Part shown: positions 1,501-34,442 of the stretch, one piece after another
How the letters are laid out: each line of letters begins with the position of its first letter
Position numbering within the stretch: the stretch's first letter is position 1
Assembly: GCA_029834535.1 (NCBI GenBank)
Contig: JAQMWT010000026.1
Span: 1 to 38,607, forward strand
DNA length: 38,607 nt
From: Chrysophaeum taylorii
Lineage: Eukaryota > Sar > Pelagophyceae > Pelagomonadales > Pelagomonadaceae
Direction of reading: 5' to 3'
Made by a program: the position numbers and the translations under genes
Notes under the pieces: generated by a model
Databases searched by the model: none
Told to the model about the DNA's origin: nothing
The model's input: the letters and a program-made list of their open reading frames with translations, nothing else

Positions 1501-2107
1501 TTCTTTCATCGGCATGAGTAATTATTGCCGGCGATATGTGAAGGGCTACTCGAAGATCGTGGAACCGCTGAGACGATTATGCCTCGAAAGTGTAAAGTTC
1601 GAGTGGACGCAAGAGTGTCAGAAAGCGTGGGATACGATAATTGAAGCTCTGGTTGATTCCAGAGGAGTCTACCACCCCGATTATGATCTGCCTTTTCAGA
1701 TCCGATCCGATGCTTCCAAGGATGGACTTGGAGCGTATCTCTTCCAGATTGTCGAAGTCAAGGACGATGCCGGAAGAGTGACTCGAGAAGAACGAGTTAT
1801 TGAATATTGGAGCCGAGCTGTGCCGAAGGAGATGCGCATTTATGAGCCCCGTCGGTTAGAGCTGCTGGCAGTTATACTTTCTCTAGAGCACTTTCGAGCC
1901 TACATCGAAGGGCACCGGACTGTTTTGGAGACCGATCACCGAAATTTGACGTTTTTACGTAAGGCGACGCACTCGTCTGGACAGCTTGCTCGTTGGGCGA
2001 TGCGCCTCGCCAATTTTGACCCTGAACTTGGTTACAAGCCGGGAAAGTCACCGGGAATGAGTATCCCTGACTGTCTCTCCCGCAATCCGATAGATCATGT
2101 CATCTAG
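1487..2107 (+). pseudogene. Gypsy-1 RNase H region
   Basis: An open stretch from about 1490 aligns with the Gypsy-2 thumb and RNase [14 protein letters not shown] is the thumb 'FLG..NYYRRF' motif. RSDASKDGLGAYLFQ holds the first catalytic Asp, RRLELLAVILSLEHFR the Glu and ETDHRNLTFL the second Asp. RNase H removes RNA from the RNA:DNA hybrid during reverse transcription. It runs into TAG at 2105-2107, where Gypsy-2 has Glu (LIEKDEDGEP against VI*TDEFGEP). So this is one G-to-T nonsense change and the same frame continues into the integrase. Confidence 0.85.
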
Positions 2108-4100
2108 ACTGACGAGTTTGGAGAACCTTTGAACCACGCTTATTTGGTGTTCCAAGAGCTTCCCCGACCTGTTGATGACCGAGGAGTTCCCGCATCCGGC
2201 TGCAATTTCATAATGTCGTTTATTACGACCGAACTGCTGGAAGACGAGGAAGAAAATCCTGAAAAGGATCCGATGAAATTGGCTACGTCTCACGCTACGA
2301 GACAACGTCGGAAGAACCGTGCGCGCGATGAGCCACACATCTTCAAGGACGCAGCCGCTTACAAAGATTATATCGATAAGATACCCAATAATATGACGCT
2401 CGCTGAGATCGCACGTGAGCAAGAATCTGATGCTACTTGCGAGGATATTCGCTACCGAATGGCCCAAGGCCAGACGCCGCGACGTTCCCGAGCGAACGAA
2501 CGATTCGAAGTCGTTAAAGACGTTCTTTACCGCATTTCTGCTGATTTGCACCCGATGATTGTTGCACCTGCTACGTTGCGCAAGCGCATTATTCGACTCT
2601 ACCATGACACTCCGGTTAACGGTGGTCATATGGGACGTCACAGTACCGTCCAGGCTATCCAAGAACGATTTTGGTGGCCCCACATGTCGAACGAAGTTGG
2701 AGTCTTCATTGCTGAATGTTTAGTTTGCCAGAAAGCTCGTACGCTTGAGCCGAAACGAGCTGGACTCTTGCAGCAGCCCGTCTACGATGGTGATGGTGCT
2801 GTTCTTTGCATGGATTTATTCGGACCTTTGCCCAGCGCTGGTCCCGAGACGTATCTTCTAGTATTTTTTGATCCGCTCTCGCATTTCTTGATTCTGGATG
2901 TTTTGAACGATAAGACTGCCGAGTCTGTCCTCGAGTCTTTTGTCATTAACATCCTCCTCAAGGGCTACTTGCCCCAGATGATTCGTACCGACAACGGTAA
3001 AGAGTTCGTGAACAAGTTGATGCGCGAGTTTTGCCATCTCTTCAACACACGATACAAAACTACGATTCCTTATCATGCCCAGTCGAACCCCGCTGAGCGT
3101 GTAAACCGATTTATCAAGGCCTTCCTCCGTGCTTGCCTTCAGGGCCGGAACATCACGGATTGGCCCGACTTTGCTCATTATATAGCGTTTTGTTATAACC
3201 GCAAGTTTATTCCAGGCACGCAGATTTCCCCCTTTATGCTGCGCCTGAGCCGTCAGCCGATGCTGCCGACCGACTACACGCTTATGGACTTTGATACGCG
3301 ATTGTTGCCGAAGACTCGCTCTGATGCAGTCGCCGAAACTCGTGAACGATTGAAGTATTATACGAAGATCGTCCGCGAGGCTCGTGATAAAGCTTTGAAG
3401 AAACAACGATTGGCTTACAATGCTGATCATGTTGATGTTGAATACAAGGAAGGATCGCACGTTTTGCTCTACATACCTTTCCTTCAGAACAAACTTCGAC
3501 CGGAATGGCGGGGACCGTTTATTATCAAGGAGCGCCTTTCCCCGGTCACCTATAGGATTGAGTCTCTCGACTCTCCACCCGAAGAACGACGTGTTCATGT
3601 TAGTCAGATCACGCCTGTGATGGTACCTCCGATCGTTGATCAAACCATCCGCAAACCCGAAGAAACCTTCCGTGATGATTATCAGCACGGTAAGTTTGTT
3701 GTTTTCCGGATTCCTGACCGGGAGCGCTCTGATTGGCGCAAGAGGATTTATGTTGAAGTTTATGAGCCTTACGATTACCAAAATGATCGTGTTGCTCTAC
3801 ATTTCTACTCCGATCTGGGTCCGAACGATGATGTCGCTTATTTCAAGCCGACCTCCTACCTTTCGCACCGCAAGCTCAAGCCCGAGTTCAAGGACGTTGA
3901 AGGTCGAAGTTTCACCGAAGTCCAGAATTTCCTCCAACACAACTCCTTGTGTCACGGATTTCGCTCCGCACGAGACTGATGTGTTGATCCCCAAGTTTAC
4001 TTTACGCAGTGGCCGAGTTCCTGAGCCGGTCATCACCCGCGTTTACCAGAAGATTCGTTCACGAGATGCTCGTAAGGCGAAGCCGCGCTCCTCGCGCTAG
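2108..4100 (+). pseudogene. Gypsy-1 integrase with GPY/F motif and extra C-terminal module
   Basis: The frame continues after the TAG. The N-terminal zinc-binding HHCC is visible: two His in YHDTPVNGGHMG and two Cys in ECLVCQK. The catalytic D,D,E are in LCMDLFGPL, IRTDNGKEF and NPAERVNRFIKAF, all intact. After the core comes a GPY/F-type motif (WRGPFIIKERLSPVTYRI, about 3500-3560). An aromatic-rich module follows (KRIYVEVYEPYDYQNDRVAL, about 3745-3800) that Gypsy-2 shares. A one-base frameshift at about 3935-3955 puts the last ~50 residues (PCVTDFAPHETDVLIPKF onwards) in another frame, ending at 4098-4100. Integrase inserts element cDNA into chromosomes. No typical chromodomain motif was seen. 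Confidence 0.88.
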
Positions 4101-4285: not shown

Positions 4286-4805
4286 TACTACTAATCGACA
4301 GATGTTTGTCTGTCTGTTTGTCTTTAAAACAACCGGGCGGGCCGGTTGGCAGCCGGAACGTTCGCAGTGGGACGGGGTATGGCCGGGGGGCGAAGACGGA
4401 AGGTTATCGACGAGTTGGTTGTCAGTCACAACGCGGTCTCCTCGTCGCATGGCGACGAGCTTGATGGTCACTCTCCGCCGACCGACCTTTCGGCGCTCCT
4501 CGTCTACAGGCCCGTGATTCCGGACTGGCTCCTGTCGGTCCGGCCTGGCTCCCATGCTCGGGAGAGGTCTGAAGTTAGTTAGTTAGTTTGTTTGTCTTTA
4601 AATGTCGACTGCTAAGAGGGGGGTGTGTGTGGGGAGCATGAAGGATGTGGGCGGGTTTGTGGGGTAATCTGTCTGTTTGTCTTAAATGTCGACTGCTACG
4701 AGGGGGGTGTGTGTGGGGAGCATGAAGGATGTGGGTGGGTTTGTGGGGTATGAGGGATGTGCCTGACGGGCGGAGATAAGTACGCGGGACCTAGTCGGGG
4801 TCATC
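4286..4805 (-). mobile_element. LINE 3' end in reverse orientation, split by a SINE-like insertion
   Basis: Bases 4603-4805 repeat 15488-15605, the 3' end and last codons of the LINE at 15488-18300. Shared parts are the 'ctgctaagagg' stretch, the GT-rich stretch, 'gcctgacgggcgg' and the closing 'cggggtcatc'. In LINE sense, 4805 to 4793 codes the last codons before the TAG. The 3' UTR follows, with an ~84-bp segment present twice (about 4607-4690 and 4691-4757). Then come TGTC/TGTT-type simple repeats to about 4290. The SINE-like insertion at 4329-4588 interrupts it. The 5' side is cut by the Gypsy-2 LTR at 4806. Confidence 0.7.
4329..4588 (+). mobile_element. SINE-like insertion, copy 1 (5'-truncated)
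   Basis: About 260 bp, over 98% identical by eye to copies at 11289-11652 and 24156-24431, and ending in the same GTTA-type simple tail (about 4572-4588). It lacks the first ~100 bp of the full copy. It is flanked by an exact 14-bp direct repeat, TGTTTGTCTTTAAA, at 4315-4328 and 4589-4602. A truncated 5' end, a simple-repeat tail and a variable-length target duplication are the signature of LINE-driven target-primed insertion. It has no coding capacity. A fragment of a LINE 3' end is an alternative. Confidence 0.8.
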
Positions 4806-5134
4806 TGTGGCAGTAACGCCCATTAACCCCCACTTGCCTGCCTGCCACCTGACTTACCCTGATTGTTGCCCTGGTATTGACCTTGCATTTATGGGGGTGT
4901 CATCTTGACACCTTCACCTGCGCTTCCACTGGACCCAATGTACCGGGCATTTGTATTGCTTTCTTGCTGTCTTCTTGATATTACCCTCTTTTGATTGTCC
5001 GATTTCGTGATGGCGTGAGGTATTACGCTGAGATCGGGCGTGTGGTGGTTTCACCCGCGGTTCGGGTTGGGAGAAAGGGTTGTTGAGGCCCCCGGTCCGG
5101 CCAGGAGGGGCGGGTATCTGAGAAAACCACTACA
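4806..5134 (+). repeat. Gypsy-2 5' LTR
   Basis: 329 bp from TGTGGCAGTAACG to CCACTACA, matching 14636-14966 with about 96% identity. LTRs hold promoter and polyadenylation signals; I see no convincing TATA box or AATAAA. It starts directly after LINE coding sequence. Confidence 0.95.
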
Positions 5135-5135
5135 G

Positions 5136-5157
5136 TGGTCTCAGAAACGGGAATCGA
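5136..5157 (+). promoter_or_regulatory. Gypsy-2 primer-binding site
   Basis: One base after the LTR comes TGGTCTCAGAAACGGGAA followed by TCGA. TGG pairs with tRNA CCA and the T with the discriminator base. The next seven bases correspond to the acceptor strand. ACGGG followed by AATCGA fits the T-stem and the universal TTCGATT loop, in the right order and spacing. The match to tRNA architecture is thus about 22 bases; the tRNA species could not be identified. A tRNA bound here would prime minus-strand cDNA synthesis. Confidence 0.8.
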
Positions 5158-7989: not shown

Positions 7990-8312
7990 GGAGATTGCAT
8001 GACTGAGTTGCATCTAGAGTTCTTTCGGAAGACGAAGATAATCGCGACGAATTGGGGTATACGATTGTTCGTGTGGGACAAAATACCTTGGTTGCCATGG
8101 ATATAGTGCCACCGAGGGACGATTGTGCCGAGCGTTATGCTGCTCACCCTTCCATCTCTTCGGATTTCGAGAATTTCTGTCCTCAGACTGCGTTGAATAC
8201 CACCCAGGATCCCGACCATCGTGAAAATAAAGCCGTAAGGTACGATGGTACGAGATCCGCCTCTTTGACGTATGTGCCTGTGGCTATCTCTTCGCAAGAT
8301 GGTTCGAAATAT

Positions 8313-8630
8313 TCTATCATCGCTGCCGGCTTGGATGGCATGGCTGATTCCCCCTACATCGATCACCGCTTGTATCGCAAACTTGATCGTGACGGCAAAA
8401 TCATCTATCGTCAGCCACTCCCTACGATTCGTACTCTAAATGGATCAGGAGGTTCGGGAGCTGCTATTCGAGAATGGGTCATCCTCCGGATCTCCTTGGT
8501 GCCGACGACATCCATGCTGCTCATGTTCTTCGTTGGTCAAACGAATGGGCAGTTACTATTAGGAGCACGAGAGTTACGACTCTTGGGTACGATTTTGGAT
8601 TATGCGACAGAGAGAGCTATTTTTCGGCGT
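8313..8630 (+). other. Gypsy-2 aspartic-protease domain
   Basis: SIIAAGLDGMADSPYIDHRL aligns with the retropepsin pattern 'a.lDsGA..sfi', and LLLGARELRLLGTILDYATE with 'iLG.dfL....a.iD'. The catalytic Asp is at 8334-8336. The next two residues are Gly-Met instead of Ser/Thr-Gly, so the active-site triplet is not canonical in this copy. The family cuts Gag and Pol from the polyprotein; whether this one could do so is doubtful. Confidence 0.65.
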
Positions 8631-9422
8631 TCTGAAGTGACCATTGGAGTTCTCAAGAATCGAACTTCCGCCTCGCCACAAGACCAGCATGGAATTGTGC
8701 TTTACAATGATGCATTCGATGCGACTCCGCAGGTAGTGCAGATGTTCCCGACAGCTAAGCTTGCTGTGCAATACGGAAACATCCAAACTTGGACGCCAGT
8801 TGGTAAACCATGGAGTTATGACAGTCTATGGCGTTCTATTCGTATCAGAGCGAATCACCAGCACATTCCTTCCGGTGATCAGACTGCTGGAAAAGCTGAA
8901 GACCAACTTGAATGCCCTGCATACGAGGAAGATATCATCCCTCATTTCGCGTACGTGACGAGTACTCGATTTCTTCTTCCAAGCCAACCGTATTTCTTGA
9001 AGATGGAGTGCGATGTGCCGCTGGAAAAGAGTCACGTATTCCGACCTTATCGGTCACTCCTTCAAGATCTCCGCCTTGTACCTGGTTCCTATTCATCGTA
9101 TTGTGCTGATGAGCCCAACGAAGTTCATGTGGCTGTGGAGCACATTGGTGATGAACCCATTGGTATCGACCCCGAAGTCCCGGTGGTCGAAGGCGAGATT
9201 ATGCCGCATGAAGGATGTGTCAACATACAGCTAGAAGCCATTGATGACGTGTGTCATGCCACTCTTACGGCTGCTGTTGACGACGACGAAGTCGAGGAGG
9301 ATGTCTTGAGTGACAGACCTCCTCCTCAGCCACCTCCAGATGAAGAAGTGAAAAAAACACCAGAAATGGAGATGGAGGCGACTGTTAAGGAGCTGCTATC
9401 TAAGCACGCTTCCTTGGTTTGG

Positions 9423-10290
9423 ATACCCATCACCTACACTTTTGTCGTCGTCTATTTTGCTGGCGCTGGAGGATCAACATTGGGTATCCGGCGATGCAAT
9501 GAGCTATATGGCAGTTCATTTCGCATTGTTCTGGCTTTGGATGCTTGTCCTCAAGCCCGAGCCACCTTTGAACTCAATTTTCCGAAGATTCCCTATGTTT
9601 TGCATGAGTTGGGGAAATCTCATCGTCGTACATACGACTTGGTGTTGTCGTATTTACATTCAGATTTTTGGAAGCACTCTTATTTTCACGCCAGTCCGCC
9701 GTGTATCTATGGATCGACTGCCAATTTGCACTACAGGGACGCACGCAAGGGCGCTACTATTACTTCTTGGGTCCTGCGTCATTTCCGCAACGCACCTTAT
9801 GTGATTGGACGATGGACACTCGAGCAGGAACCATCAGTGATCCCTTTTGTGCATCACCAATTTTATGTGCCGCGTATTGTTGATTTCTATAGTATCACGC
9901 CAGAGCTGCTGTGCTCGCGCACGCGCCTACTTGCTTGCAATGTTCGCTTGGAACTGCCGTTATTATCGCGTGTACCACCGAATTTACGGGACCGTTTTGG
10001 CCCAGCGTTGGGATTTACAGGTGGTCACCCGCTCATTATAGTGAACAGTTTCTCATCTACGCGCCCGGCTATCGGCCCTGCCTTCACGGTGACGCGCAAT
10101 AAGCTCCGCTTAGGACCTCATTTCTCGAACACCCGTCCACTCACGTTGCAGATGCACCAGGAAATTATGACCGTTCCTGCTACGTGGCAATGGGGTGCGA
10201 CAGTTTCCGAGACAGTAGCTATGAAGATGCTTGGCAGTATGGTGCCACCCGCGACTATGACGCGGATTGCGCTAGCAGTGCACAATTCGT
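9423..10290 (+). other. Cytosine-5 DNA methyltransferase domain inside gypsy Pol
   Basis: Ordered motifs of the C5 methyltransferase family are present in frame with Pol. Motif I VVYFAGAGGSTLGI (9447-9485) binds S-adenosylmethionine. Motif II-like VLALDACPQARATFELNFP follows (about 9531-9590). Motif IV is ASPPCIYGS, with the nucleophilic Cys at 9702-9704. Motif VI-like RWTLEQEP keeps the Glu but has Gln for Asn of ENV. Motif VIII-like SRTRLLA comes next. Motif IX-like RPLTLQMHQEI precedes motif X KMLGSMVPPATMTRIA (10224-10270), where GNxVPP is GSMVPP. About 290 residues, the size of a minimal enzyme; the variable region between VIII and IX is present. The family transfers a methyl group to cytosine C5. 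No stop or frameshift interrupts it. Confidence 0.9.
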
Positions 10291-11288
10291 TTGAACCTTC
10301 ACTTCGAAATTTGGGTAAGTTGCGGAATATTGCGACGACTACGCTAGCCCAACCTGATCACCATATTCTACGGTTTTCACCTTTTGCTGTAGAGTCGCGC
10401 ATTCCAACGCTCGACCCTGCCACTCGAAGTGTATCATGGATTGCGCCCGATGAACTCTACTCTTCTGCGAGTCCTGCACCATCCGCTGCTGCCACCACCA
10501 CCCCGCCACCGCCTTCAGTTACATCGCCTGGGACGGCTTCATCTTTTGCAGGGGGCACCGTCGCCACTGCTGTTATGCAGAGCAACCAAGTTGATAACCA
10601 GCCCTCCGCAACTGCTGAAGAAGAAGGCACCGCGAAAGAGCGACCAGCGTATTTCAATACGTACGACGTTCCGTGGGCGGACGCGCCTCACGACGAACAT
10701 GGTCAACCTTCACCGGTGATGCCTCCTCATTTAGCGGATCAGGAGAGCATGCAGGTCATCCCTCCGACCGTCGCGCAGGTCGAAGAGGTGATGACTGAAT
10801 TGGGTATTACAGAGCATCCTGCTTTAGATGATGACGAGAAGCTGATGATGAAGCATTTAATCTCGTATTCGTGGGCATTTTTCGATGATGTGATGAGACC
10901 TGTTGATTCACCTGAAGTGACGCTCCGGTTCAAAGAAGAGAACCCGACTCCCGTCAAACTCTCGCCATATCGGTTATCGAAAGAAAAGATTGAATGTTTG
11001 CGGATGCAGATTGAAGCATGGACCCGAGACGGAGTTATTCGTCCCGCGAATTCTCCATGGGGTTTCCCTATTTTGATGTTGCCTAAGAAAGGTGCTGAGC
11101 CTGGCACTCCCAATGCTTACAGAGCAGCTGTCGACCTACGACGCCTCAATGCATTGCTCAAGGATGATAGCTGGCCGAGTGTGAGCATGGCTGACGCGTT
11201 GATGTTTCTCATTGACAAGTTCTATCGTCCCAGTTTTGATATTCGTTGGGGCTATCACAATTTACGATTGTCGCTGGATGCACAAGAT

Positions 11289-11652
11289 CTTACCCTGATC
11301 GCCGACTGCGGTTGCGATGGAGGACGGTGCCTCATGAATCCTGAGCCTTGCGAGGGCATCCGCCCTCCCGGCGTAGGTTGGCACCTATTCGCCTCCCGGG
11401 CGGGCCGGTTGGCAGCCGGAACGTTCGCAGTGGGACGGGGTATGGCCGGGGGGCGAAGACGGAAGGTTATCGGCGAGTTGGTTGTCAGTCACATCGCGGT
11501 CTCCTCGTCGCATTGCGACAAGCTTGATGGTCACTCTCCGCCGACCGACCTTTCGGCGCTCCTCGTCTACAGGCCCGTGATTCCGGACTGGCTCCTGTCG
11601 GTCCGGCCTGGCTCCCATGCTCGGGAGAGGTCTGAAGTTAGTTAGTTAGTTA
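11289..11652 (+). mobile_element. SINE-like insertion, copy 2 (longest)
   Basis: 364 bp inserted in the Gypsy-2 RT just after motif A. It is bounded by an exact 9-bp duplication of the target, GCACAAGAT, at 11280-11288 and 11653-11661. It starts CTTACCCTGATCGCC and ends in repeated GTTA (about 11637-11652). No protein can be made; frames through it only extend Pol artificially. No clear pol III A/B boxes or tRNA homology were found in it, so 'SINE-like' rests on size, tail and target duplication. Differences from copy 3 are about 3 in 258 bp, far fewer than between the Gypsy-2 LTRs, so it inserted later than Gypsy-2. Confidence 0.85.
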
Positions 11653-12395
11653 GCACAAGATGTGGTCACCTTCACTAGTCCTCTGGGAGCGTACAGCTAC
11701 ATGCGTCAACCTTTGGGAGTCAAACCAGCCGGAAGTTTGTTTTGCAAACAGTTGAACACTGACTTATCACAATGGCTATATCGTGATCTCGTGGCATATA
11801 TCGACGATATTCTCGCCGGTCACGCAGATACAAAGAATCACTTGCAGTGCCTTGTGCAAGTTATGCCCCATCTCGCCTTGAAGGGGTACAGTGCCAAGAT
11901 AAAGAAATTCATTTTATGCAAGAAGTCATTGAGTTTTTGGGTCATTTATCTACCCCGAACGGACTTCTTCCATCACCAAGATCTTTAGAAGCCATCAGAC
12001 ACATGCCAATCCCGGGCACTTTGTCGGATGCTGACCCTAAGAAGCAAGTGCGATCTTTCCTTGGAATGGGGAGCTTTTGCCGGCGTTATGTAAGGAATTT
12101 TGCGAAAGTTGCAGAGCCATTAAGACAACTGACGTTGCCGGACGTGAAATTCACGTGGACGAAAGAGTGTCAGGAAGCTTGGGATGCCATCATCGAGGCT
12201 ATTGTCACGTCGAAGGGCGTCTACCATCCTGATTACTCGTTGCCCTTTTACATTCGAACTGATGCTTCCGCGCATGGGTTGGGTGCTTACCTATTTCAAA
12301 AAGTACCAGTCGTTGACGACGATGGAAGAGAAAGAATCGAAGAGAGAGTTATCGAGTACTGGAGTCGAACCGTGCCTAAGTCGATGAGGAAGTAG
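11653..12395 (+). pseudogene. pol: Gypsy-2 Pol: rest of RT and start of RNase H
   Basis: After the insertion the RT resumes: VVTFTSPLGAYSYMRQPLG, motif B GVKPAGSLFCKQL, motif C YIDD with its Asp pair at 11803-11808, and KGYSAKIKKF. Near 11916-11922 the frame changes by one base, and EVIEFLGHLSTPNGLLPSP continues in the new frame. Then come the thumb (SFLGMGSFCRRYV) and the RNase H start with its first Asp (RTDASAHGLGAYLFQ). It ends at TAG 12393-12395, aligned with Tyr in Gypsy-1 (MRIYEPRRL against MRK*DPRRL), so this is a nonsense mutation. Confidence 0.9.
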
Positions 12396-13679
12396 GATCC
12401 TCGGCGCTTGGAACTCCTCGCAGTACTCTCTGCTCTCGAAAACTTCCGATTTTATATCGAAGGTCATCAGACGAAGTTAGAGACGGATCATCGTAACTTA
12501 ACGTTTCTGCGGGATTCGAATCATACGTCTGGGCAGTTAGCACGATGGGCTATGCGGCTTGCTGCGTTCGATCGGGAGCTCGGATACAAGCCTGGAAGCT
12601 CCCCTGGCATGCGTATTCCGGATTGCCTGTCGCGCAACCCTGTCGACAAATTGATCGAGAAAGATGAAGACGGGGAACCGATCAATGAAGCTTTTTCGAT
12701 TTTCCAAGAAATCCCCACCGATGTCCCTGGCACAGCTTGCTTCACCTTCTCTTCGGTGACGATGCCTATGCTGACGGACAGCGGACCCACCGCAGCTATG
12801 GTAGCAGTTAGTACGCGACAGAACGTACAACCGCCTCAATTCTCGTACGAATCTGAGCCAGTTGAATCCGTCGAACGTCTCCCTTTTGCGGATCAAGCGG
12901 AGGATGAGATCACTCTCGATGAGATAGCGAAAGAACAAGCTGAGGATGAAACATGCAAGCGCATCAGACGAAAACTCGACTCTGAACAGAAAGATCAAGA
13001 CGAGCAGTCATCCGTACCATATGAGATCAATGACAACGTGTTGTATAAGGTTGATGATTCAGCTTCTCAACGTCTTATTGTGGTCCCTCAGTCTATGCAG
13101 AAGCGTGTAATCGCCATGCATCACCGAGGCTTGTTCGGAGGCCATGTAGGACGAGATTCCACAGCGAATCAAATCCTAGAACGGTATTGGTGGCCAAACG
13201 TCTCATCATCCGTTAATGAGTTCGTCAATGCCTGCATTATTTGTCAGAAGATTCGATCCACCATGCCTAAGCGCCATGGCTTGCTCTTTCAACCGAATCG
13301 CGTCGGAGACTGCTATGTCCTAGGTATGGATTTGATTGGACCTCTACGAGGCGCTGACCTGTACACGTACATACTCGCCATGTACGATGCAGCATCACAT
13401 TTCTTGAAATTAGCTTTGATCAACACGAAGCATGATTATTCGAGCTTGAACGCGTTTGTTGACAAGATTTTACTCGAGGGATGTCTCCCACGGTGCATTG
13501 TCACGGATAATGGAAATGAGTTCGCGAACAGGTTATTCCGCACGTTTGTTCGTCAAGTCAACGTACGTTATCGTACTACCCTTACGTATCATCCTCGGAG
13601 TAATCATACTGAGCGTGTCAATCGATTCATCAAAGCCTTCTTGCGAGCTGCGATCGATGAACAGCGTCAGCCAGATTGA
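12396..13679 (+). pseudogene. pol: Gypsy-2 Pol: RNase H end and integrase core
   Basis: Same frame as before the TAG. RRLELLAVLSALENFR and ETDHRNLTFL complete the RNase H acidic residues. A spacer follows (about 12650-12930). The integrase zinc-binding region has His in MHHRGLFGGHVG and Cys in ACIICQK. The catalytic D,D,E are in GMDLIGPL, VTDNGNEF and NHTERVNRFIKAF, all present. The stretch ends at TGA 13677-13679. Gypsy-1 has Trp there (TDWPDF against QPD*SNF), so a TGG-to-TGA change is likely. Confidence 0.9.
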
Positions 13680-14600
13680 TCGAACTTCCTCCCATATGTG
13701 TCATTCATGTACATTAGGATGTACATTCCGGGAACGAAGATTTCACCTTTCATGATGCGTACTGGCAAGCAACCCCTGTTACCACCCGATTACAATCTTT
13801 TGAGTGAACAGCGTGATCTACCGCAATCACGTCATCAGATTTTGGTGGATTTTAAGAACAAGTTTGAATTTTATAGTCGACTCGTTACACGAGCTCATCA
13901 GAAAGCACAGGAGAGTCAAAAGCTCAACTATGATGCCCACCAAGTTGACATCCAGTTTTCCCCAGGTGATTATGTTCTGCGTTTTGTGCCTAAAACACGC
14001 CACAAGCTACGGCCCATTTGGCGCGGACCTTACATGATTACTAGAAAGATCTCTCCCGTCGTTTATGAAATTCAAGACGTTAACGACGATGATGCTGAAT
14101 CGGTTGTAGTATCTGTCCAACAGATTGTGCCTTTGAAAGTGCCAACCATCGACACTTCTTCAGCCCCCCTACATTTACCCTCGGACCGCAACCGGTTCAA
14201 ACATGGTAAGTTCGCGATTTTCAGGGTGAAAGGACGATCCAATGCGTGGAAGAAGCGTATCTATGTTGCCGAAGTCTACGAAGAATATGACTACGACAAT
14301 GATACAGTTGCGCTTCACTATTATACCGATTTGGGACCACGCGATGATCCTCGCGTCTTTGATCCTACTAAGCCTCTGGCTGAGCGGCGCTTAAGACCAG
14401 AATACAAAGATCCTGACGGAGGTAGCTTCACACGCCTACGACCCAACATGGAGGGCTGTGAACCCTGTGTGACTGATTTTCGCCCGGATGAAATCGATGT
14501 CCTCGTCACTAACTTCGGTCTCCACAGCAACAAAGTTCCTGCTGATGTAGCTGAACGAGCTTATCGTACCATTCGTGAGCGTGACCTTCGTCACCCTTGA
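13680..14600 (+). pseudogene. pol: Gypsy-2 Pol: integrase C-terminus and extra module
   Basis: Continues in frame after the TGA. IPGTKISPFMMRTGKQPLLP closes the integrase core. KLRPIWRGPYMITRKISPVV (about 14005-14065) is the GPY/F motif. About 140 further residues follow, conserved with Gypsy-1: HGKFAIFRV, then KKRIYVAEVYEEYDYDNDTV, LHYYTDLGP, RRLRPEYKDPDGGSF and PCVTDFRPDEIDVLV. The first part of this module, rich in Tyr/Trp and small beta-like stretches, resembles a chromatin-reader-sized barrel (Tudor or chromo-barrel type). That is a resemblance only; no family was recognised. The stop is at 14598-14600, 35 bp before the LTR. Confidence 0.85.
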
Positions 14601-14623
14601 AGTCGAGGACGACTTCATCTCAA

Positions 14624-14635
14624 GTAGGGGGCTCC
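14624..14635 (+). promoter_or_regulatory. Gypsy-2 polypurine tract region
   Basis: AGTAGGGGG followed by CTCC lies immediately before the 3' LTR. Gypsy-1 has AGGGGAG followed by TCC in the same place. Such a tract primes plus-strand synthesis. It is short, so the call rests on position and on conservation in both elements. Confidence 0.55.
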
Positions 14636-14966
14636 TGTGGCAGTAATTCCCATTTCCCCCCACTTGCCTGCTTGCCACCTGACTTACCCTGATTGTTGCC
14701 CTGGTATTGACCTTGCGTTTATGGGGGGGGGTCATCTTGACACCTTCACCTGCGCTCCCACTGGGCCCAATGTACCGGGCATTTGTATTGCTTTCTGGCT
14801 GTCTTCTTGATATTACCCTCTTTTGATTGTCCGATTTCGTAATGGCGTGAGGTATTACGCTGAGATCGGGCGTGTGGTGGTTTCACCCGCGGTTCGGGTA
14901 GGGAGAAAGGGTTGTTGAGGCCCCCGGTCCGGCCAGGAGGGGCGGGTATCTGAGAAAACCACTACA
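14636..14966 (+). repeat. Gypsy-2 3' LTR
   Basis: 331 bp, TGTGGCAGTAATT to CCACTACA, the partner of 4806-5134. Most differences cluster in the first 25 bp and in a G run near 14720-14730. The sequence changes abruptly at 14967. Confidence 0.95.
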
Positions 14967-18460: not shown

Positions 18461-21016
18461 ATGGACGAAAGCGGCGAGCGGCCGGCGGACGCCGCGACGG
18501 CGCCGACGGACGACGCTCTCCGCGCGTCGCGTCTCGCGCGCCGCGAAGTTGTCGAGGCGCATCGAAAGAAAAAGGGCACGGCGGAGGCGTACGACCTCTG
18601 GGTGAGGCAGTGGTATGCTTGGTGTCACGCGAGGCCGGGCGACGTCGTCTGCGGCATGACGATGCCCGTCGACAAGCAGGTGTACTCCGGCGCCGCGGTG
18701 CCGTCGACGGTCGAGCTCTGGCTCGCCGCGTTCGTAACGGTTCGGCCGAAGCTGAAGAACGGCAAGCCCGCGCCCGGCACGGGCGGCGCCGGGAGGGGGA
18801 TCGGGATCGAATCCGTGCGCCAGGCCATCAAGGCGGTCACCGACTTGCAAGCGGCTCAGAGGCTCGACGATGAGTTCCGCGCGGAACTGGACGGCGTCCC
18901 CGCGCCTCGCGCTGGTGGCCAGGTACGCCTCGCGTTTTGGCCGATCAGCCGTCGTCTTGACAGCGTCTCGTCCTCGCAGCTCAAAGCCATTCTCGAGGAG
19001 CACGCGCACCAGACGGCAATGCGGCGCGAGGAGCTCTGCGGAGATAGGGCCTCGGGTCGTAACATCAACGGCGACTACGACGACGAGCAAAAGTACCAGT
19101 TGAGCACAATCGGGCTGTTCGAGGACTCCGCTCGCCCTCACAAGCTTGCCGAAAAGCAGGCGATGCTCATGCGCGTGTCGCAGCTGCTTCGCGATTCGCT
19201 TTCGTTTCGAGGGGACGAAGCGAGGAAACTCCAGCTGGCCGACGTATTTCTGGCGTGCGCGATGGCGAGAGAGGGACCGCAACAGTGCCGGGTAGTTGTC
19301 TTTGCGCTCAACAACGGAAAATCCAACCTCGACGGCAAGGTTATGTTAAGCGCGTCGATGCGACACGCGACGAAACCCGAGCTGTGCCTGCAATTCCACT
19401 TGGCGCTGTCGTTCTTCGAATTGTACGTCGTATTTAAGGTGGACGTGCCCCATTGGCGACCCGAACGCGACGAGGAGGGTCGCCTCCATCGAGATTTTTA
19501 TTCCTTCCACGTGCTCCCGGGCTGCAACTGTCGCAACGGCATTTTTAACGTGCGCACAAGCCTCACGCCCCAGACGATATCCAACCACTGCAGCTGGATG
19601 TACGCGAACATGCGCAACCCGCTGGTGAATGCCCCGAAGAAAGTCCACCTCAATCGCGGGAGGTCGTTGCGAGACGGGATTGCCAGCGGCGTCTCGGAGC
19701 AGCAAGTTGGGCGCGCCGGGAATTATCGTGGATTCACGGCGCTGAACCGAAGCTACCTCACCGACCTGCCGTGGGATATGATCCGGCATACCGCCGGGTT
19801 CCCGACCCGATCCGGATACTTCTTGTTGCGTGCGTTGGTCCAACCTCCCGAGCCGTTGGTGAAGAAGGTTTTCGCGACATTGCTGGACTCATACTACGAG
19901 TGGCTCGAATCGCCCGACTTCAATAAGGACGACCTCGACCTCGCCACGAAGCAGTTTGTCGAGGTCGTCGAGCATCTCGCCGTCGTACTCTGCCAGGACC
20001 TCGCGGTCCTTTACGGGAAAATGAAGCACTTCCACGTCTTCTCTCACGCACCTTTCAACGACGACACCTACGGCTTCTTAACATTCCGGCAGGAGCTCCT
20101 CCAGGCCATGACGGACCAAGGCGCCAACCAGCTGCAGCGCACTGCGGAGGCAGCGCAGGAACGGGGAGATGAGAAGTGCGCCGCCTTCGCTCGCGAGGTG
20201 CTTGGTTCGGTCGCGACGATGCTGGAGCAGCACAAGGTCACAGGCTCGGCCAGCGGTCCACCTGCGCAGCCAATCCAGATGCGATTAAGCGGAACGCCTG
20301 CTAGGCACATCAGCGAGATCCACGACCAAATATGTGGCAATGACGCGCCGCGGCGTCTCACCGGCGCGATATCGGACCCCCTGCGACCACTCCCGCTTTG
20401 TTTCCAGAGATACCGCCACGGGCTTCGGCCGCCGACTCAAACGACGCCTCAGAGGACGCCCTTCTGTTTGGTCAACAAAGACTGGTTGTGTCGGATAAAT
20501 CGACCTGGCCGGTTGACCCCCGCGCTTCCAAACTTCGCTCTTGCGACGAAGCTCGCCTCATGCCCAGCGACCATAGGGGAGTTGGCCGAAGAGTACTTCC
20601 GCGGCGTCGGCATCGGTGCTCCTCTCAAGTACCTTGACGAGTACTACGGTCCCATCAGGCGCCCGGGTACCGGCAAAACGGGTTTCTCCTGGCGCAGCGC
20701 CAGAGCGCGCGATCCGAGAGGCAAAAGCCGCAAGTTTAACACGGCGTACGAGAAGCGCAAGCCTATCTTCGACTATCTCGAAAAGCACGGCGAGCAGCAG
20801 GGTGTCAAACTGCTCGAGGATCGCGTCAACGCGCGTCTGCAACCCGGTCAAGAATCCAACTGGAAGGCCATCTGTGATCTCCTCCCGGAGATTATCAAGG
20901 AACTCCGTCCCGAATCCTTCGAAAAGAACAGCAAGCGTGCTCAGGTGGCGCGAGCCAAGACGCGGGATGCCAAGCGCCAGCGCGTGTTGCCGCACGCGTC
21001 GAGCACGAACGACTAA
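18461..21016 (+). CDS. Crypton-like tyrosine recombinase with GCR1_C-type DNA-binding domain
   Basis: 851 residues in one open frame from ATG 18461 to TAA, without introns. Residues ~35-170: N-terminal helical region with LWVRQWYAWC, like a core-binding domain. Catalytic candidates: Arg250 in SLSFRGDEARKLQLADV (box I), H396xxR399 in VHLNRGRSLRDG (box II), and Tyr432 in NRSYLTDLPWDMIRH followed by AGF, the Crypton-type end. Residues ~550-595 look coiled-coil. Residues ~704-790 (TIGELAEEYFRGVG, PLKYLDEYYG, WRS, YEKRKPIFDYLEKH) match the GCR1_C pattern of fungal and oomycete Cryptons. The tail is basic. Cryptons move by recombination of circular DNA using the Tyr nucleophile. All four catalytic residues are present, so the enzyme may work. 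No terminal repeats were found. A domesticated gene is possible. Confidence 0.85.
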   Translation: MDESGERPADAATAPTDDALRASRLARREVVEAHRKKKGTAEAYDLWVRQWYAWCHARPGDVVCGMTMPVDKQVYSGAAVPSTVELWLAAFVTVRPKLKNGKPAPGTGGAGRGIGIESVRQAIKAVTDLQAAQRLDDEFRAELDGVPAPRAGGQVRLAFWPISRRLDSVSSSQLKAILEEHAHQTAMRREELCGDRASGRNINGDYDDEQKYQLSTIGLFEDSARPHKLAEKQAMLMRVSQLLRDSLSFRGDEARKLQLADVFLACAMAREGPQQCRVVVFALNNGKSNLDGKVMLSASMRHATKPELCLQFHLALSFFELYVVFKVDVPHWRPERDEEGRLHRDFYSFHVLPGCNCRNGIFNVRTSLTPQTISNHCSWMYANMRNPLVNAPKKVHLNRGRSLRDGIASGVSEQQVGRAGNYRGFTALNRSYLTDLPWDMIRHTAGFPTRSGYFLLRALVQPPEPLVKKVFATLLDSYYEWLESPDFNKDDLDLATKQFVEVVEHLAVVLCQDLAVLYGKMKHFHVFSHAPFNDDTYGFLTFRQELLQAMTDQGANQLQRTAEAAQERGDEKCAAFAREVLGSVATMLEQHKVTGSASGPPAQPIQMRLSGTPARHISEIHDQICGNDAPRRLTGAISDPLRPLPLCFQRYRHGLRPPTQTTPQRTPFCLVNKDWLCRINRPGRLTPALPNFALATKLASCPATIGELAEEYFRGVGIGAPLKYLDEYYGPIRRPGTGKTGFSWRSARARDPRGKSRKFNTAYEKRKPIFDYLEKHGEQQGVKLLEDRVNARLQPGQESNWKAICDLLPEIIKELRPESFEKNSKRAQVARAKTRDAKRQRVLPHASSTND

Positions 21017-28258: not shown

Positions 28259-29570
28259 GTTGTAGTCGTAAAAATCGAGATTATTTCGAAGAAGCAAACC
28301 CTTTCGGCCGATCTTTTTTTGAAGTAAGGTTGACGCGTGCGACGGCGATGGAGCCTTCGCCCGGCAAACGGGACGACGCGCTCGAGCCAGGGACGCTACG
28401 CGAGCCTCGACGCCGGCATGGCATGCCGGGGTTCGGGGTTCTTTCGGGGTTCTGGCGCGCGCAAAAATGCGACGCGATTTCGCCTTTTTTCCGCGCGAAC
28501 TCTTCGGTACGCGCGCGATGCGTGCCGGCGTCTTCGTCGCCGCTGCGACCGGCCACCGAAATCGAGAACGGCTTGCCGCGCTCGCGTCTGCGGTCAAAGC
28601 CCGCTTCCACGGCCACGACTCGATCTTCCGACGGGCCGTCCTCGAGAACGCGCGCGACCGAACGAGACTCGACCGTCGACTCGGTGGATCGACCACCGTT
28701 TCACCTTCGATACGATGCGTGCCGCCGGCTTCGTCGCCGCTGCGAGCGGCCATCGACGTCGCGACCGCGGTATCGGACTCGCCCGCGGGTTGACGTCCAG
28801 TCGACAAACCCGAAAAAAAACTCGGCGGCTCGCTCGACGGGCGGCGCTCCGCGCCGCCGGGCCCGGCGCTTCGATACGATGCGTGCCGGCGTCTTCGTCG
28901 CCGCTGCCAGCGGCCACCGCCGTCGCGACCGCGGCCTCGGACTCTCCCCCGCTACGGATCGAAGACCACGAAAAACGCGGCGACGACCGCGACGAGCGCG
29001 CCCGCGCGCGCCCACGACGACCGCCCGTGGCCGCGCTCTGGCCATCGCCGACGGAGAAGAAGAAGACGAAGACCGCCTCGACGCCGGCATGGCATGCCGC
29101 AATTTTTCGTTCGATGTTCTTTGCGGTCAAAGCCCGCTTCCACGGCTACGACTCGCTCTTCCGACGGGCCGTCCTCGAGAACGCGCGCGACCGAACGAGA
29201 CTCGACCGTCGACTCGGTGGATCGACCACCGTTTAACCTCCGTTACGATGCGTGCCGGCGGCTTCGTCGCCGCGAGCGGCCACCGCCGTCGCGACCGCGG
29301 ACTCGGACTCGCCCGCGGGTTGACGTCCAGTCGACCAACCCGAAAAAAACTCGGCTCGCTCGACGGGCGGCGCACCGCGCCGCCGGGCAGCGCTTCGATA
29401 CGATGCGTGTCGGCGTCTTCGTCGCCGCCGTCGCGACCGCGGGTTGACGTCCAGTCGACCAACCCGAAATAAAAACTCGACGGCGCGTCGAGCTCGACGC
29501 GTGCGCCAGCGCTTCGATACGATGCGTGCCGGCGTCTTCGTCGCCGCTGCGAGCGGCCACCGCCGTCGCG

Positions 29571-29634
29571 GACTCGGACTCGGACTCGCCCGCGGACTCG
29601 GACTCGCCCGCGGACTCGGACTCGCCCGCGGTGT
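29571..29634 (+). repeat. 18-bp minisatellite in the CpG-rich block
   Basis: GACTCGGACTCGCCCGCG repeated about three and a half times. Two copies occur at about 31606-31642 and 33551-33587, and degraded copies near 38091-38155. Copy number differs between units, which shows slippage within the array. Confidence 0.85.
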
Positions 29635-30311
29635 CCAGTCGACCAACCCGAATGCAAACTCCGCGGCGCGGCGCGCCGGCGCTCGACGCGTCTGCCAGCG
29701 CTTCGATACGATGCGTGCCGGCGTCTTCATCGCCGCTGCGAGCGGCCACCGCCTTCGCGACCGCGGCCTCGGACTCTACGAGCGCGCCGCGCGCCCGCGC
29801 GCCGACGACCGGCCGCGCACGACCGCCCGTGGCCATCGGCCATCGCCCACGGAGACGAAGACCTCCCCGCTCGCGTCTACGGCGAAGCCCGCTTCCGCGG
29901 CCACGCCTCGCTCTTCCCGCTGCGGCCGTCCTCGCCGCGAGAACCTCTGGACCGTCGACCGCGACGGCGCGTCCGCTATCTATGGATTATGCGCGACGCC
30001 CTCCTTCTCACTACGCCCGCCGCCACCCCGGCGCCTATTGTCTATAATGAAATACTCCATTAAACAAAGCGGCCATCCGCCATCTCATAGTCCATCTCAT
30101 AGTCCATCCGCAAAAAACGCAAAGCCGAAAATAAACAGGCATAACGCTAACCCCCAGAACGCTTCGCGCAACGGAAAGGAAGGAAAAGGGTACCCACCCT
30201 AACCCAAGAACGAAAAATGCGCAGAAATCTTCAAGAACCGAAAAGACAGAATTTCCACGGCGTGCGACGGCGTTTTTGGTCGGCTCCCGAGACGCGGCGG
30301 CCGTCGAGGCG

Positions 30312-30399
30312 GTGGGGGGTCCGGGGGTGTCCCCCGGCGGGGGGTTTGGGGGGCAGAGCCCCCCAATTCCCGGGGGGTTCGGGGGGCTTGCCCCCCGAG
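30312..30399. repeat. G/C hairpin cluster, unit B
   Basis: Same three stems as in unit A, with the loops TGT, AGA and CTTG unchanged. Confidence 0.9.
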
Positions 30400-30736
30400 A
30401 AAAAGGCCGAAAAAAACCCGACTTGGCCTTACTAGTCCACAATAATTAATTGGGAAATGTCAGTGTGTGTGTGACAGAACTCTAACGGAACTCTACTTTC
30501 TGTTCGAAGCCCTATGTATGCTCGAAACGGGCCGACAAAATCTGCGTTTTGTAAAGTCAAATTAAAGTCAAAACTTCAACCCGCGGCCTACTTTCTGTTC
30601 TTTGCTAAATGTATGAGCCGAAAGCCTTAATGTTTATAAAATGTTTTCTTCTTGCCATCTGCGGCGAGAGCCTTGTAGCATGTAGTATCGGAGAAAGCGT
30701 AGAAGTTTGAGCGAGAATCTGGGGTTATTGCCGTAC

Positions 30737-30862
30737 GTACGTCTCGAGTTCGGATCCTGGTGGTCGATTCGTAATGCTGAGAGTAGTAGCCTGGGGAGCG
30801 TGGGCGAAGACTCGGATACGTAGTGCGCCTAGGTCCCTGGTTTCGAGTTCGATTACCGTAGT
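30737..30862 (+). promoter_or_regulatory. tRNA-like module, unit C
   Basis: Same module as in unit B with TGGGGAGCGTGGG and GTTCGATTACC. The B box has one change relative to unit B. Confidence 0.45.
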
Positions 30863-30937
30863 AGTAAATTGGACGCTGCTGGTCGAAAAAATCGAGAGTA
30901 TTTCGAAGAAGAAAACCCGTAGTATTTGTTAAGAAGA

Positions 30938-31095
30938 CCATACCCCGTCCCGCTGCGAACGTTCCGGCTGCCCACCGGCCCGCCCGGGAGGCGAATAGGT
31001 GCCAACCTACGCCGGGAGGGTGGGGATTCCCTCGCAAGGCTCAGGATTCGTCAGGCACCGTCCTCCATCGCAACCGCGTCAGCGATCAGGGTAAA
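30938..31095 (-). repeat. Inverted SINE-like head, unit C
   Basis: Same segment and orientation as in unit B; ends at the same GGGGTATGG point. Confidence 0.8.
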
Positions 31096-32423
31096 GGTTG
31101 TAGTCGTAAAAATCGAGATTATTTCGAAGAAACCCTCGGCCGATCTTTTTTGAAGTAAGGTTGACGCGTGCGACGGCGATGGAGCCTTCGCCCGGCAAAC
31201 GGGACGACGCGCTCGAGCCAGGGACGCTACGCGACCCTCGACGCCGGCATGGCACGCCGGCGTTTTTCGTTCGATGTTCTTTCGGGGTTCTGGCGCGCGC
31301 ACAAATGCGACGCGATTTCGCCTTTTTTGCGCGCGAACTCTTCGGTACGCGCGCGATGCGTGCCGGCGTCTTCGTCGCCGCTGCGACCGGCCACCGAAAT
31401 CGACAACGGCTTGCCGCGCACGCGTCTGCGGTCAAAGCCCGCTTCCACGGCCACGACTCGCTCTTCCGACGGGCCGTCCTCGAGAACGCGCGAGAGCGAA
31501 CGAGACTCGACCGTCGACTCGGTGGATCGAACATCGTTTCACCTTCGATACGATGCGTGCCGCCGGCTTCGTCGCCGCTGCGAGCGGCCACCGCCGTCGC
31601 GACCGCGGACTCGGACTCGCCCGCGGACTCGGACTCGCCCGCGGGTTGACGTCCAGTCGACCAACCCGAAAAAAAACTCGGCGGCGCGCTCGACGGGCGG
31701 CGCTCCGCGCCGCCGGGCAGCGCTTCGATACGATGCGTGTCGGCGTCTTCGTCGCCGCCGTCGCGACCGCGGGTTGACGTCCAGTCGACCAACCTGAAAT
31801 AAAAACTCGACGGCGCGTCGAGCTCGACGCGTGCGCCAGCGCTTCGATACGATGCGTGCCGGCGTCTTCGTCGCCGCTGCGAGCGGCCCCGCGCGCCGGC
31901 GACCGGCCGCGCGCCCGCGCGCGTCCACCACGACCGCCCGCGGCCATCGGCCATCGCCCACGGAGACGAAGACCTCCCCGCTCGCGTCTACGGCGAAGCC
32001 CGCTTCCGCGGCCACGCCTCGCTCTTCCCGCTGCGGCCGTCCTCGCCGCGAGAACCTCTGGACCGTCGACCGCGACGGCGCGTCCGCTATCTATGGATTA
32101 TGCGCGACGCCCTCCTTCTCACTACGCCCGCCGCCACCCCCGCGCCTATTGTCTATAATAAAATACTCCATTAAACAAAGCGGCCATCCGCCATCTCATA
32201 GTCCATCTCATAGTCCATCCGCAAAAAACGCAAAGCCGAAAATAAACAGGCATAACGCTAACCCCCAGAACGCTTCGCGCAACGGAAAGGAAGGAAAACG
32301 GTACCCACCCTAACCCAAGAACGAAAAACTGCGCAGAAATCTTCAAGAACCGAAAAGACAGAATTTCCACGGCGTGCGACGGCGTTTTTCGTCGGCTCCC
32401 GAGACGCGGCGGCCGTCGAGGCG

Positions 32424-32510
32424 GTGGGGGGTCCGGGGGTGTCCCCCGGCGGGGGGTTTGGGGGGCAGAGCCCCCCAATTCCCGGGGGGTTCGGGGGGCT
32501 TGCCCCCCGA
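32424..32510. repeat. G/C hairpin cluster, unit C
   Basis: Same three stems and loops; practically identical to unit B over the whole cluster. Confidence 0.9.
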
Positions 32511-32850
32511 GAAAAAGGCCGAAAAAAACCCGACTTGGCCTTACTAGTCCACAATAATTAATTGGGAAATGTCAGTCAGTCCGTGACAGCACATGAACGG
32601 AACTCTACTTTCTGTTCGAATGCCTATGTATGCTCGAAACGGGCCGTCAAAATCTGCGTTTTGTAAAGTCAATTGTAAAGTCAAAACTTCAACCCGCGGC
32701 CTACTTTCTGTTCTTTGCTAAATGTATGAGCCAAAAGCCTTAATGTTTATAAAATGTTTTCTTCTTGCCATCTGCGGCGAGAGCCTTGTAGCATGTAGTA
32801 TCGGAGAAAGCGAAGAAGTTTGAGCGAGAATCTGGGGTTATTGCCGTACG

Positions 32851-32972
32851 TACGTCTCGAGTTCGGATCCTGGTGGTCGATTTGTAATGCTGAGAGTAGT
32901 AGCCTGGGGAGCGTGGGCGAAGACTCGGATACGTAGTGCGCCTAGGTCCCTGGTTTCGAGTTCGATTACCGT
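32851..32972 (+). promoter_or_regulatory. tRNA-like module, unit D
   Basis: Near-identical to the unit C module, including GTTCGATTACC. Less than 10 differences were seen across the module. Confidence 0.45.
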
Positions 32973-33050
32973 AGTAGTAAATTGGACGCTGGTGGTCGAA
33001 AAAATCGAGAGTATTTCGAAGAAGAAAACCCGTAGTATTTGTTATGAAGA

Positions 33051-33209
33051 CCATACCCCGTCCCGCTGCGAACGTTCCGGCTGCCCACCGGCCCGCCCGG
33101 GAGGCGAATAGGTGCCAACCTACGCCGGGAGGGTGGGGATGCCCCCGCAAGGCTCAGGATTCGTCAGGCACCGTCCTCCATCGCAACCGCAGTCAGTGAT
33201 CAGGGTAAG
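33051..33209 (-). repeat. Inverted SINE-like head, unit D
   Basis: Same segment and endpoints; includes the 'actgcggttgcgatgg' form found in the RT insertion. Confidence 0.8.
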
Positions 33210-34442
33210 GTTGTAGTCGTAAAAATCGAGAGCATCTCGAGCTATGCAAACCCTCGGCCGATCTTTTTTTGAAGTAAGGTTGACGCGTGCGACGGCGATG
33301 GAGCCTTCGCCCGGCAAACGGGACGACGCGCTCGAGCCAGGGACGCGACGCTCGACGCCGGCATCGGGGCTCCTTCCAAAGCCCGCTTCCACGGCTACGA
33401 CTCGCTCTTCCGACGGGCCGTCCTCGAGAACGCGCGAGAGCGAACGAGACTCGACCCTCGACTCGGTGGATCGACCATCGTTTCACCTTCGTTACGATGC
33501 GTGCCGGCGGCTTCGTCGCCGCTGCGAGAGGCCACCGCCGTCGCGACCGCGGACTCGGACTCGCCCGCGGACTCGGACTCGCCCGCGGGTTGACGTCCAG
33601 TCGACAAACCCGAAAAAAAACTCGGCGGCGCGCTCGACGGGCGGCGCTCCGCGCCGCCGGGCCCGGAGCTTCGATACGATGCGTGCCGGCGTCTTCGTCG
33701 CCGCTGCGAGCGGCCACCGCCGTCGCGACCGCGGCCTCGGACTCTCCCCCGCCAGCCACAACAGCTCGCCGTAAAGTCGCGGCCTTCGTCGACGCGTCGT
33801 CGACCTCGACGCGTCTGCGACATCGATTTCGCTTTGGTCGACGGTGGTCGCGCCACGTCCTGGGACTGGCCGCGCTCTGGCCATCGCAAGCCTCGCGACC
33901 TACTACTGGAACGCCTACGGATCCAAGACCACAAAAAACGCGGCGACGTCCGCTATCTACGTCTAGACCATCGGCCACCGTCGGCCACACGGATAAATCT
34001 CCGTCGTGCTCCTTCGAAACCCACGCCCTGTCAACTCCAACGGTGCGCGCTCCATTCTCCACCGCCTCATCCCTGTCAACCTCCTCCAACTCGCACCATG
34101 GATATTAAGAAATGACTACTACACCCTTAATTCCCAAGGCCGAAAACTCCCCAATGGGGAGTCCGCCTCCTCCACCCCGAGCCTGTTGTCTCCTCCCACA
34201 GGATCCCACGGCAAAGAAAGAGAATAAAACGGGCGTGTGGTCGGCGGCCACGTCCACCGCGTCGCGGCACGCAAAGCCGAAAATAACACACGCATAAGCC
34301 TTACCGCAGAAGCCACACGCTCTACCATAAACCCTCATAACGGATCTCAACATGTTCAAGAACCGAAAATGACGAAAAACCGTTGCCACGGCGTGCGACG
34401 GCGTTTTTGGTCGGCACCCGCGTCCGTGCGCGCCACCAGAGG

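Follow-up and report, generated by a model that had tools for sequence, protein, structure and literature searches.

Methyltransferases of the C5-cytosine type (C5-MTases) carried by retrotransposons have been described in two lineages, dinoflagellates and charophytes (PMC5890265; statements on published systems here and below refer to the accessible parts of the sources). The closest published case to the element analyzed here is KnitGypsy-Dnmt3 of the charophyte Klebsormidium nitens (de Mendoza et al. 2018, PMC5890265). Streptophytes and dinoflagellates are still the groups named in a 2025 survey of DNA methyltransferases (DNMTs) across eukaryotes, which terms the long terminal repeat (LTR) element Copia. 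A 2019 opinion paper (PMC6338049), with reference to earlier studies, mentions that Ty3/Gypsy and DIRS elements bearing DNA methylases occur in stramenopiles as well, without separating adenine from cytosine enzymes, and for this reason any claim to a first stramenopile case needs care. Apart from that general remark, no Gypsy-borne C5-MTase beyond the known cases was found in the searches of open-licence PMC text. We analyzed a stretch of 38,607 nucleotides (contig JAQMWT010000026.1, positions 1 to 38,607; the window) containing a Ty3/gypsy-type LTR retrotransposon with a C5-MTase domain in its Pol polyprotein, between a protease-like segment and the reverse transcriptase (RT).

A conserved C5-MTase domain in the Pol frame

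A preliminary description of this DNA had placed a C5-MTase in the Pol of a Gypsy-type LTR element, with a protease upstream and an RT downstream. A profile search identified the domain as proposed: the translation of positions 9423-10290 matched PF00145 (E = 1.2e-9, 38.5 bits against a curated cut-off of 22) in two stretches, and the score within the whole Pol frame of 1211 amino acids (aa) was 32.7 bits. A profile was also built from a panel of 42 phage and bacterial C5-MTases, namely 45 of the 93 loci L083-L175, hand-picked for one in-frame match, less L100, L113 and L138, which were dropped for stops or frame. The window MTase scored 46.1 bits with this profile in two correctly ordered pieces, corresponding to motifs I-IV and the C-terminal end, and 34 stop-free copies of the family scored 37.8 to 50.1 bits, likewise in two ordered pieces in the rows listed. 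Of 20 shuffled versions of the window protein, nine were reported (E <= 100), the best at -2.3 bits, and 11 were not.

The motifs named in the preliminary description were confirmed in part. Motif I (FAGAGGSTLG), motif IV (SPPC, with the catalytic Cys) and the C-terminal GSMVPP are clear in the window MTase, whereas motifs VI and VIII are non-canonical. The invariant columns of a 36-row alignment hold residues F12, G14, G16, G17, S91, P92, P93, C94, E134, R166, V274 and P276 of the window MTase. The catalytic Cys is kept in 33 of the 34 stop-free copies, among which motif I and the VPP motif show almost no variation.

At least 143 MTase-domain matches were found in the genome (70.8 Mb, 697 contigs), a count based on 135 of 896 first-look candidates scored, so that more may exist, and in which pieces of one copy may count twice. 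The association with RT was examined in two groups of RVT_1 rows hand-picked among the matches listed, higher-scoring and partial rows being left out. In the range of the window element's family (44 rows, ending near 203), 30 rows had an MTase match on their own strand no more than 2.5 kb upstream; in the next group (25 rows, ending near 204) none had one.

Copies with an intact MTase were recovered; the preliminary description had left intact copies to a search of the assembly. The MTase was full-length and stop-free in 34 of the 51 copies read and carried stops in 17, a proportion that does not represent the whole genome because the copies were taken mostly from the best matches (the window and 50 others, from 57 loci, seven of which were the same place twice). 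At least five copies have their MTase and RVT_1 matches in frames of equal length, and hence apparently in one shared frame, of 1812 aa in C345, 2129 aa in C225, 2115 aa in C311, 1384 aa in C505 and 1146 aa in C540; the C225 frame also includes Gag, and the next stretch of this copy (L028) showed an RVT_1 match (E = 4.4e-13) with a YIDD motif.

The median ratio of nonsynonymous to synonymous divergence (dN/dS) was 0.22 over the 478 of 561 MTase pairs with dS between 0.02 and 1.5. Between the window and L027, a member of subfamily B, the MTase showed a dN of 0.093 and a dS of 1.68, which is near saturation, giving a dN/dS of approximately 0.055. By segment, dN in this comparison was 0.232 in the protease-like part, 0.359 in the linker before the MTase, 0.091 in the MTase, 0.18 in the linker after it and 0.078 in the RT part (104 of 166 codons aligned; dS saturated). 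The same pattern was repeated against L029 and, for four segments, against L031. The amino-acid identity of the MTase between subfamilies is 83-85%, with near-saturated dS and a dN of about 0.09-0.11. The MTase is under strong purifying selection, with a dN similar to that of the RT and well below that of the neighbouring segments.

Third codon positions at 10410-10860 are unusually conserved (0.66-0.74 between the window and L027, against 0.38-0.56 upstream). The possibility that an overlapping gene keeps dS low downstream of the MTase was rejected, since stops interrupt the other frames in subfamily B; recombination, or an RNA or cis-acting signal, remain as explanations.

Architecture of the element and state of the window copy

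The features of the element are listed in Table 1. Its domain order is RT - RNase H - integrase, which is the Ty3/gypsy order. The LTR match (4793-5134 and 14623-14966, 344 bp) is identical at 326 of 344 positions. No target duplication was seen by eye at the LTR flanks of this single old, broken copy. The integrase core match to PF00665 (30.1 bits) is slightly under the cut-off of 32.6. The ORF upstream of Gag appears, in our reading, to resemble the N-terminal part of the single long Gag-Pol frame of subfamily B.

Table 1. Coordinates of the element and of the repeat inserted in it (window positions; ORF, open reading frame)
Feature	Position	Strand	Basis
5' LTR, TG...CA	4806..5134	+	LTR match; ends from alignment
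Candidate primer-binding site, TGG start, one base past the 5' LTR	5136..5152	+	Sequence by eye
ORF upstream of Gag, 269 aa	5677..6486	+	No Pfam family over cut-off
Gag-like ORF, 497 aa	6496..7989	+	PF03732 Retrotrans_gag, E 0.0038, 17.9 bits, under cut-off 24.1
Pol frame, 1212 codons stop to stop	8007..11645	+	Open frame; insertion sequence from 11289
Protease-like segment (LDGMADS ... LLLGARELRLLG)	8160..8761	+	Motifs only; conserved in subfamily B
C5-MTase domain, 289 aa	9423..10289	+	PF00145; panel profile; selection; model
RT N-terminal part, cut by insertion	10791..11288	+	85% identical to subfamily B, 104/166 codons aligned
Inserted repeat, 364 bp, ends in TTAG repeats	11289..11652	+	9-bp target duplication GCACAAGAT at 11280-11288 / 11653-11661
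ORF with RNase H start	11847..12395	+	PF17919, E 1.1e-14
RNase H end, integrase zinc-binding, integrase core	12408..13679	+	PF17917, E 7.9e-12; PF17921, E 6.8e-18; PF00665, E 5.8e-7
Integrase C-terminal part	13698..14600	+	PF22938, E 1.8e-6, 28.4 bits, cut-off 27
Candidate polypurine tract AAGTAGGGGGCTCC, adjoins the 3' LTR	14622..14635	+	Sequence by eye
3' LTR, TG...CA	14636..14966	+	LTR match; ends from alignment

Two further statements of the preliminary description, a protease upstream and an uninterrupted protease-MTase-RT frame, held only partly. The protease-like segment carries the two motifs given in Table 1, but it had no Pfam protease match, and LDGMADS stands in place of D[ST]GA. 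The frame is open through the protease-like part, the MTase and the start of the RT, but not through the rest of the RT, which in the window copy is split at 11288 by the 364-bp insertion; the last 119 codons of the frame are insertion sequence, and three more ORFs, separated from the Pol frame by stops, encode the RNase H and integrase. In eight of the 10 other copies compared, a single stretch covers both sides of the insertion site and the match continues across it without the extra sequence, indicating that these eight are free of the insertion; the site coincides with the junction of two stretches in C345 and is not covered in C4.

The inserted repeat, which is perhaps SINE-like (short interspersed element), has a partial copy upstream of the element at 4333-4588 and further copies in L035 and L036. 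A related Gypsy fragment at 1514-3979 is 69-78% identical to the MTase-bearing element in the RNase H and 40-43% in the integrase, its upstream part being decayed. Elsewhere in the window, an 851-aa ORF at 18461-21016 matched NDC10_II (E = 1.4e-16) and, below threshold, GCR1_C, and may encode a Crypton-type or similar mobile protein. The GC-rich region 29500-33600 shows the same short repeats about 2 kb apart (29575, 31603 and 33547; 30080 and 32191), suggesting a tandem gene array.

Type of the MTase and its host

In sequence the MTase resembles the phage/bacterial type rather than DNMT3. All 42 panel C5-MTases were matched, with up to 36.7 bits, whereas DNMT3A and the DNMT2 and DNMT5 of the host were not alike, a comparison that is not neutral because L083 was found by its likeness to the window and itself served as the way to the panel. 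Among 23 shuffled references, 11 and 12 were reported, with best scores of -1.1 and -0.5 bits. Foldseek, run with an alignment-based and partly weak model, placed phage/bacterial C5-MTases top by fold and DNMT2 chains 2nd to 6th.

The alternative is that the domain is a captured eukaryotic DNMT of the DNMT3, DNMT5 or DNMT2 type which diverged strongly, as in Klebsormidium, where the published Gypsy case is DNMT3-type. The lack of neutrality of the panel would favour such a capture, as would the low scores that the host DNMT5 and DNMT2 also reach on the panel profile (15.1 and 8.9 bits). In a tree of 24 rows (17 of the 42 panel members, three of the 34 copies and four others) the window domain grouped with the phage/bacterial set with a support of only 83/87; the tree is saturated, with end branches of up to 10, and was for that reason not used for class assignment. 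On the other hand, phmmer with the window domain listed a single PDB entry, 8yf3 (E = 0.26), a DNA cytosine C5-carboxymethyltransferase, although the PDB includes many DNMT1, DNMT2 and DNMT3 chains; human DNMT3A scored -1.9 bits with the profile of the 34 copies and was unmatched by the single window sequence; and motifs I and IV are as in the phage/bacterial set. We consider a eukaryotic capture somewhat unlikely.

Searches for closer relatives gave few results. No homologue was found at E <= 0.001 in a set of 5.8 billion proteins, nor with a 27-row alignment at E <= 10, an absence that weighs little because the set is length-filtered and may hold few eukaryotic polyproteins. A narrow profile of the 27 rows had no PDB match at E <= 10; with it, none of 24 stretches from genome contigs and one of 25 from viral contigs was a relative, the latter being the phage locus L083.

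A 103.6-kb contig carries rbcL, with, in our reading, rbcS beside it. The plastid RbcL is red-type and, among solved structures, closest to 7yk5, which we take to be from a diatom (haptophyte rubisco lay outside the comparison), and its residues are presumably stramenopile. Charophytes carry green-type rbcL and peridinin dinoflagellates form II, neither of which is red-type. The host is probably a stramenopile alga with a red-type secondary plastid. The 58-kb contig C696, read as mitochondrial, was the only one in the assembly to match the universal rRNA pattern; it has at least eight reverse-transcriptase matches, perhaps group II intron proteins. A primer pattern for Aureococcus had 0 matches, a negative of little weight since the assembly showed no nuclear 18S, and a pelagophyte host would be a guess.

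The preliminary description had foreseen an independent acquisition should the host lie outside the two known lineages, and this view is supported, with caution: because rbcL is red-type and the MTase is phage/bacterial-like and not DNMT3, the element probably acquired, independently, another MTase class than that of KnitGypsy-Dnmt3.

Only two host genes were recognised among the 57 PF00145 matches listed, a relative of DNMT5 (L010, matching 7r76 with E = 3e-143) and a DNMT2 (L009, matching 1g55 with E = 3.9e-39), the latter adjoined by a light-harvesting gene. DNMT5 is a maintenance enzyme. Ten of the other 55 matches were read and all belonged to a second repeated family; since 123 of 474 candidates were scored, intron-split host MTase genes can be missed.

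This second family (L011-L020, outside the window) has a C5-MTase-like domain with PCQ, ENV and a degenerate motif I, following a DGGAS protease-like motif. Its C-terminal part gave 132 matches and follows within 3 kb in 44 of the 55 PF00145 matches that remain when the host genes are excluded. The stretches read showed no RT, and of 75 RVT_1 rows two were on the same strand at a distance of up to 8 kb, in both cases upstream. A profile comparison of its MTase with that of the window, made with shallow profiles, gave no match, and none of 30 stretches from viral contigs searched with this family was a relative.

Possible role of the MTase and comparison with known systems

The best explanation, to which we give a probability of roughly 0.55, is that a many-copy Gypsy element built a phage/bacterial-type C5-MTase into its Pol and uses it to mark its own complementary DNA (cDNA) or its integration site. 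What was observed directly is the presence of the domain, where it sits in the frame, how many copies exist and how strongly it is conserved; as to its role, the likeliest prediction is that it methylates the cDNA of the element itself. The Pol polyprotein would carry the MTase, together with the RT, into the Gag particle, where the new double-stranded cDNA would be the nearest DNA; prior to integration or during it, the MTase may then methylate cytosines of this cDNA or of the site of insertion. With such a mark the cDNA or the new copy could be taken for host DNA, and the DNMT5-type enzyme of the host could make it heritable. Methylation of cDNA has been proposed for SymbioDIRS, the only class for which de novo CG activity was shown in yeast (PMC5890265).

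Several observations weigh against this explanation. Activity on DNA is not assured because motif VI reads LEQE or similar instead of ENV, although its Glu is present in all 34 copies, because motif VIII (CSRTR) places both Arg on the Arg columns of the motif but has no Gln, and because the residue beside the catalytic Cys is altered in three further copies. At 289 aa, the domain can accommodate little in the way of a target-recognition part. The structure model built on an alignment of known MTases, which took in 35 of the 42 panel members, had a pLDDT (model confidence) below 50 at residues 92-107 and 127-143, the stretches surrounding motifs IV and VI, and a single-sequence prediction gave an unusable model (pLDDT 32.5). 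The ratio of observed to expected CpG was 1.10 in the element interior, that is, without depletion, 0.63 and 0.61 in the LTRs and 1.17-1.52 in the rest of the window, and CpG transitions were 1.4 times as frequent as other C/G transitions (539 close pairs from 46 copies), with CT as high as CG. The CpG test gave no clear signature and neither supports nor excludes self-methylation. KnitGypsy-Dnmt3 itself gave no methylation in yeast, a result its authors called inconclusive (PMC5890265).

The same departures at motifs VI and VIII, together with an Ile in place of Gln after PPC, would be expected if catalysis had been lost and the domain served as an S-adenosylmethionine- or DNA-binding or structural module, positioning the RT or integrase or blocking host methyltransferases. 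A binding module, however, would not need all of the catalytic Cys, the Glu, motif I and the VPP motif, which are kept in nearly every stop-free copy, and we regard this reading as unlikely.

We are more doubtful still that the conserved C5-MTase acts on RNA and not on DNA, methylating the genomic RNA or the primer tRNA during packaging or reverse transcription. This would agree with an MTase travelling in an RNA-containing particle, with the absence of a CpG scar in the element interior and with the high Foldseek ranks of DNMT2 chains, which are tRNA MTases; RNA methylation was also raised for SymbioLINE-Dnmt by de Mendoza et al. (PMC5890265). That the whole is an ordinary decayed repeat in which a chance in-frame fusion has no function is very improbable: the window copy has a broken RT, and stops interrupt the MTase frame in 17 of the 51 copies read, but the 83-85% identity and low dN despite near-saturated dS, and the 34 stop-free copies, speak against it.

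A further reading concerns methylation in the host, whose recognised enzyme is of the DNMT5 type. Retrotransposon MTases of phage/bacterial type, marking the cDNA and insertion sites of their own elements, may supply de novo cytosine methylation which the host enzyme then copies on, a proposal that we hold only tentatively and consider rather improbable. If it were true, the two apparently unrelated MTase-carrying repeated families would mean that the de novo role was taken up twice in one genome.

By sequence, the window MTase is closest to the phage/bacterial C5-MTases (L083 and its relatives; M.HaeIII, M.HhaI and 8yf3), with which it shares motifs I and IV, a IX-like motif and X. It is shorter than L083 by about 50 aa, its target-recognition region is reduced, and it differs from the phage/bacterial C5-MTases in being embedded in a polyprotein and in its motifs VI and VIII. 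The Sola1 transposon of Ectocarpus, with its ParB-MTase accessory gene (PMC12477816), is likewise an algal mobile element with its own DNA methyltransferase, but it is a DNA transposon in which the enzyme, predicted to act at cytosine N4 or adenine N6, is encoded by a separate gene.

SymbioDIRS-Dnmt3 and SymbioLINE-Dnmt of Symbiodinium (PMC5890265) are, like the window element, high-copy retroelements bearing C5-MTases, and SymbioLINE-Dnmt is of an orphan class, as the window MTase may be. They are DIRS and LINE (long interspersed element) and not LTR/Gypsy elements, however, and the DIRS-borne domain is DNMT3-type. KnitGypsy-Dnmt3 shares with the window family a C5-MTase in the Gypsy Pol polyprotein, an intron-less multi-copy family and purifying selection (published Ka/Ks < 0.2, against the median of 0.22 here and the lower value between the window and L027). 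It differs in its DNMT3-type MTase, the one described here being phage/bacterial-like and not DNMT3A-like, in its DIRS-like repeats, where the window copy and C345 have two simple LTRs, and in its host lineage. Finding a different MTase, of phage/bacterial-like type, in a Gypsy family of a seemingly third lineage would show that such fusions have arisen repeatedly with unrelated enzymes, an argument for a real advantage. With the MTase under stronger selection than the neighbouring Pol segments and a DNMT5 in the host, the question of who sets the methylation marks becomes testable in one organism.
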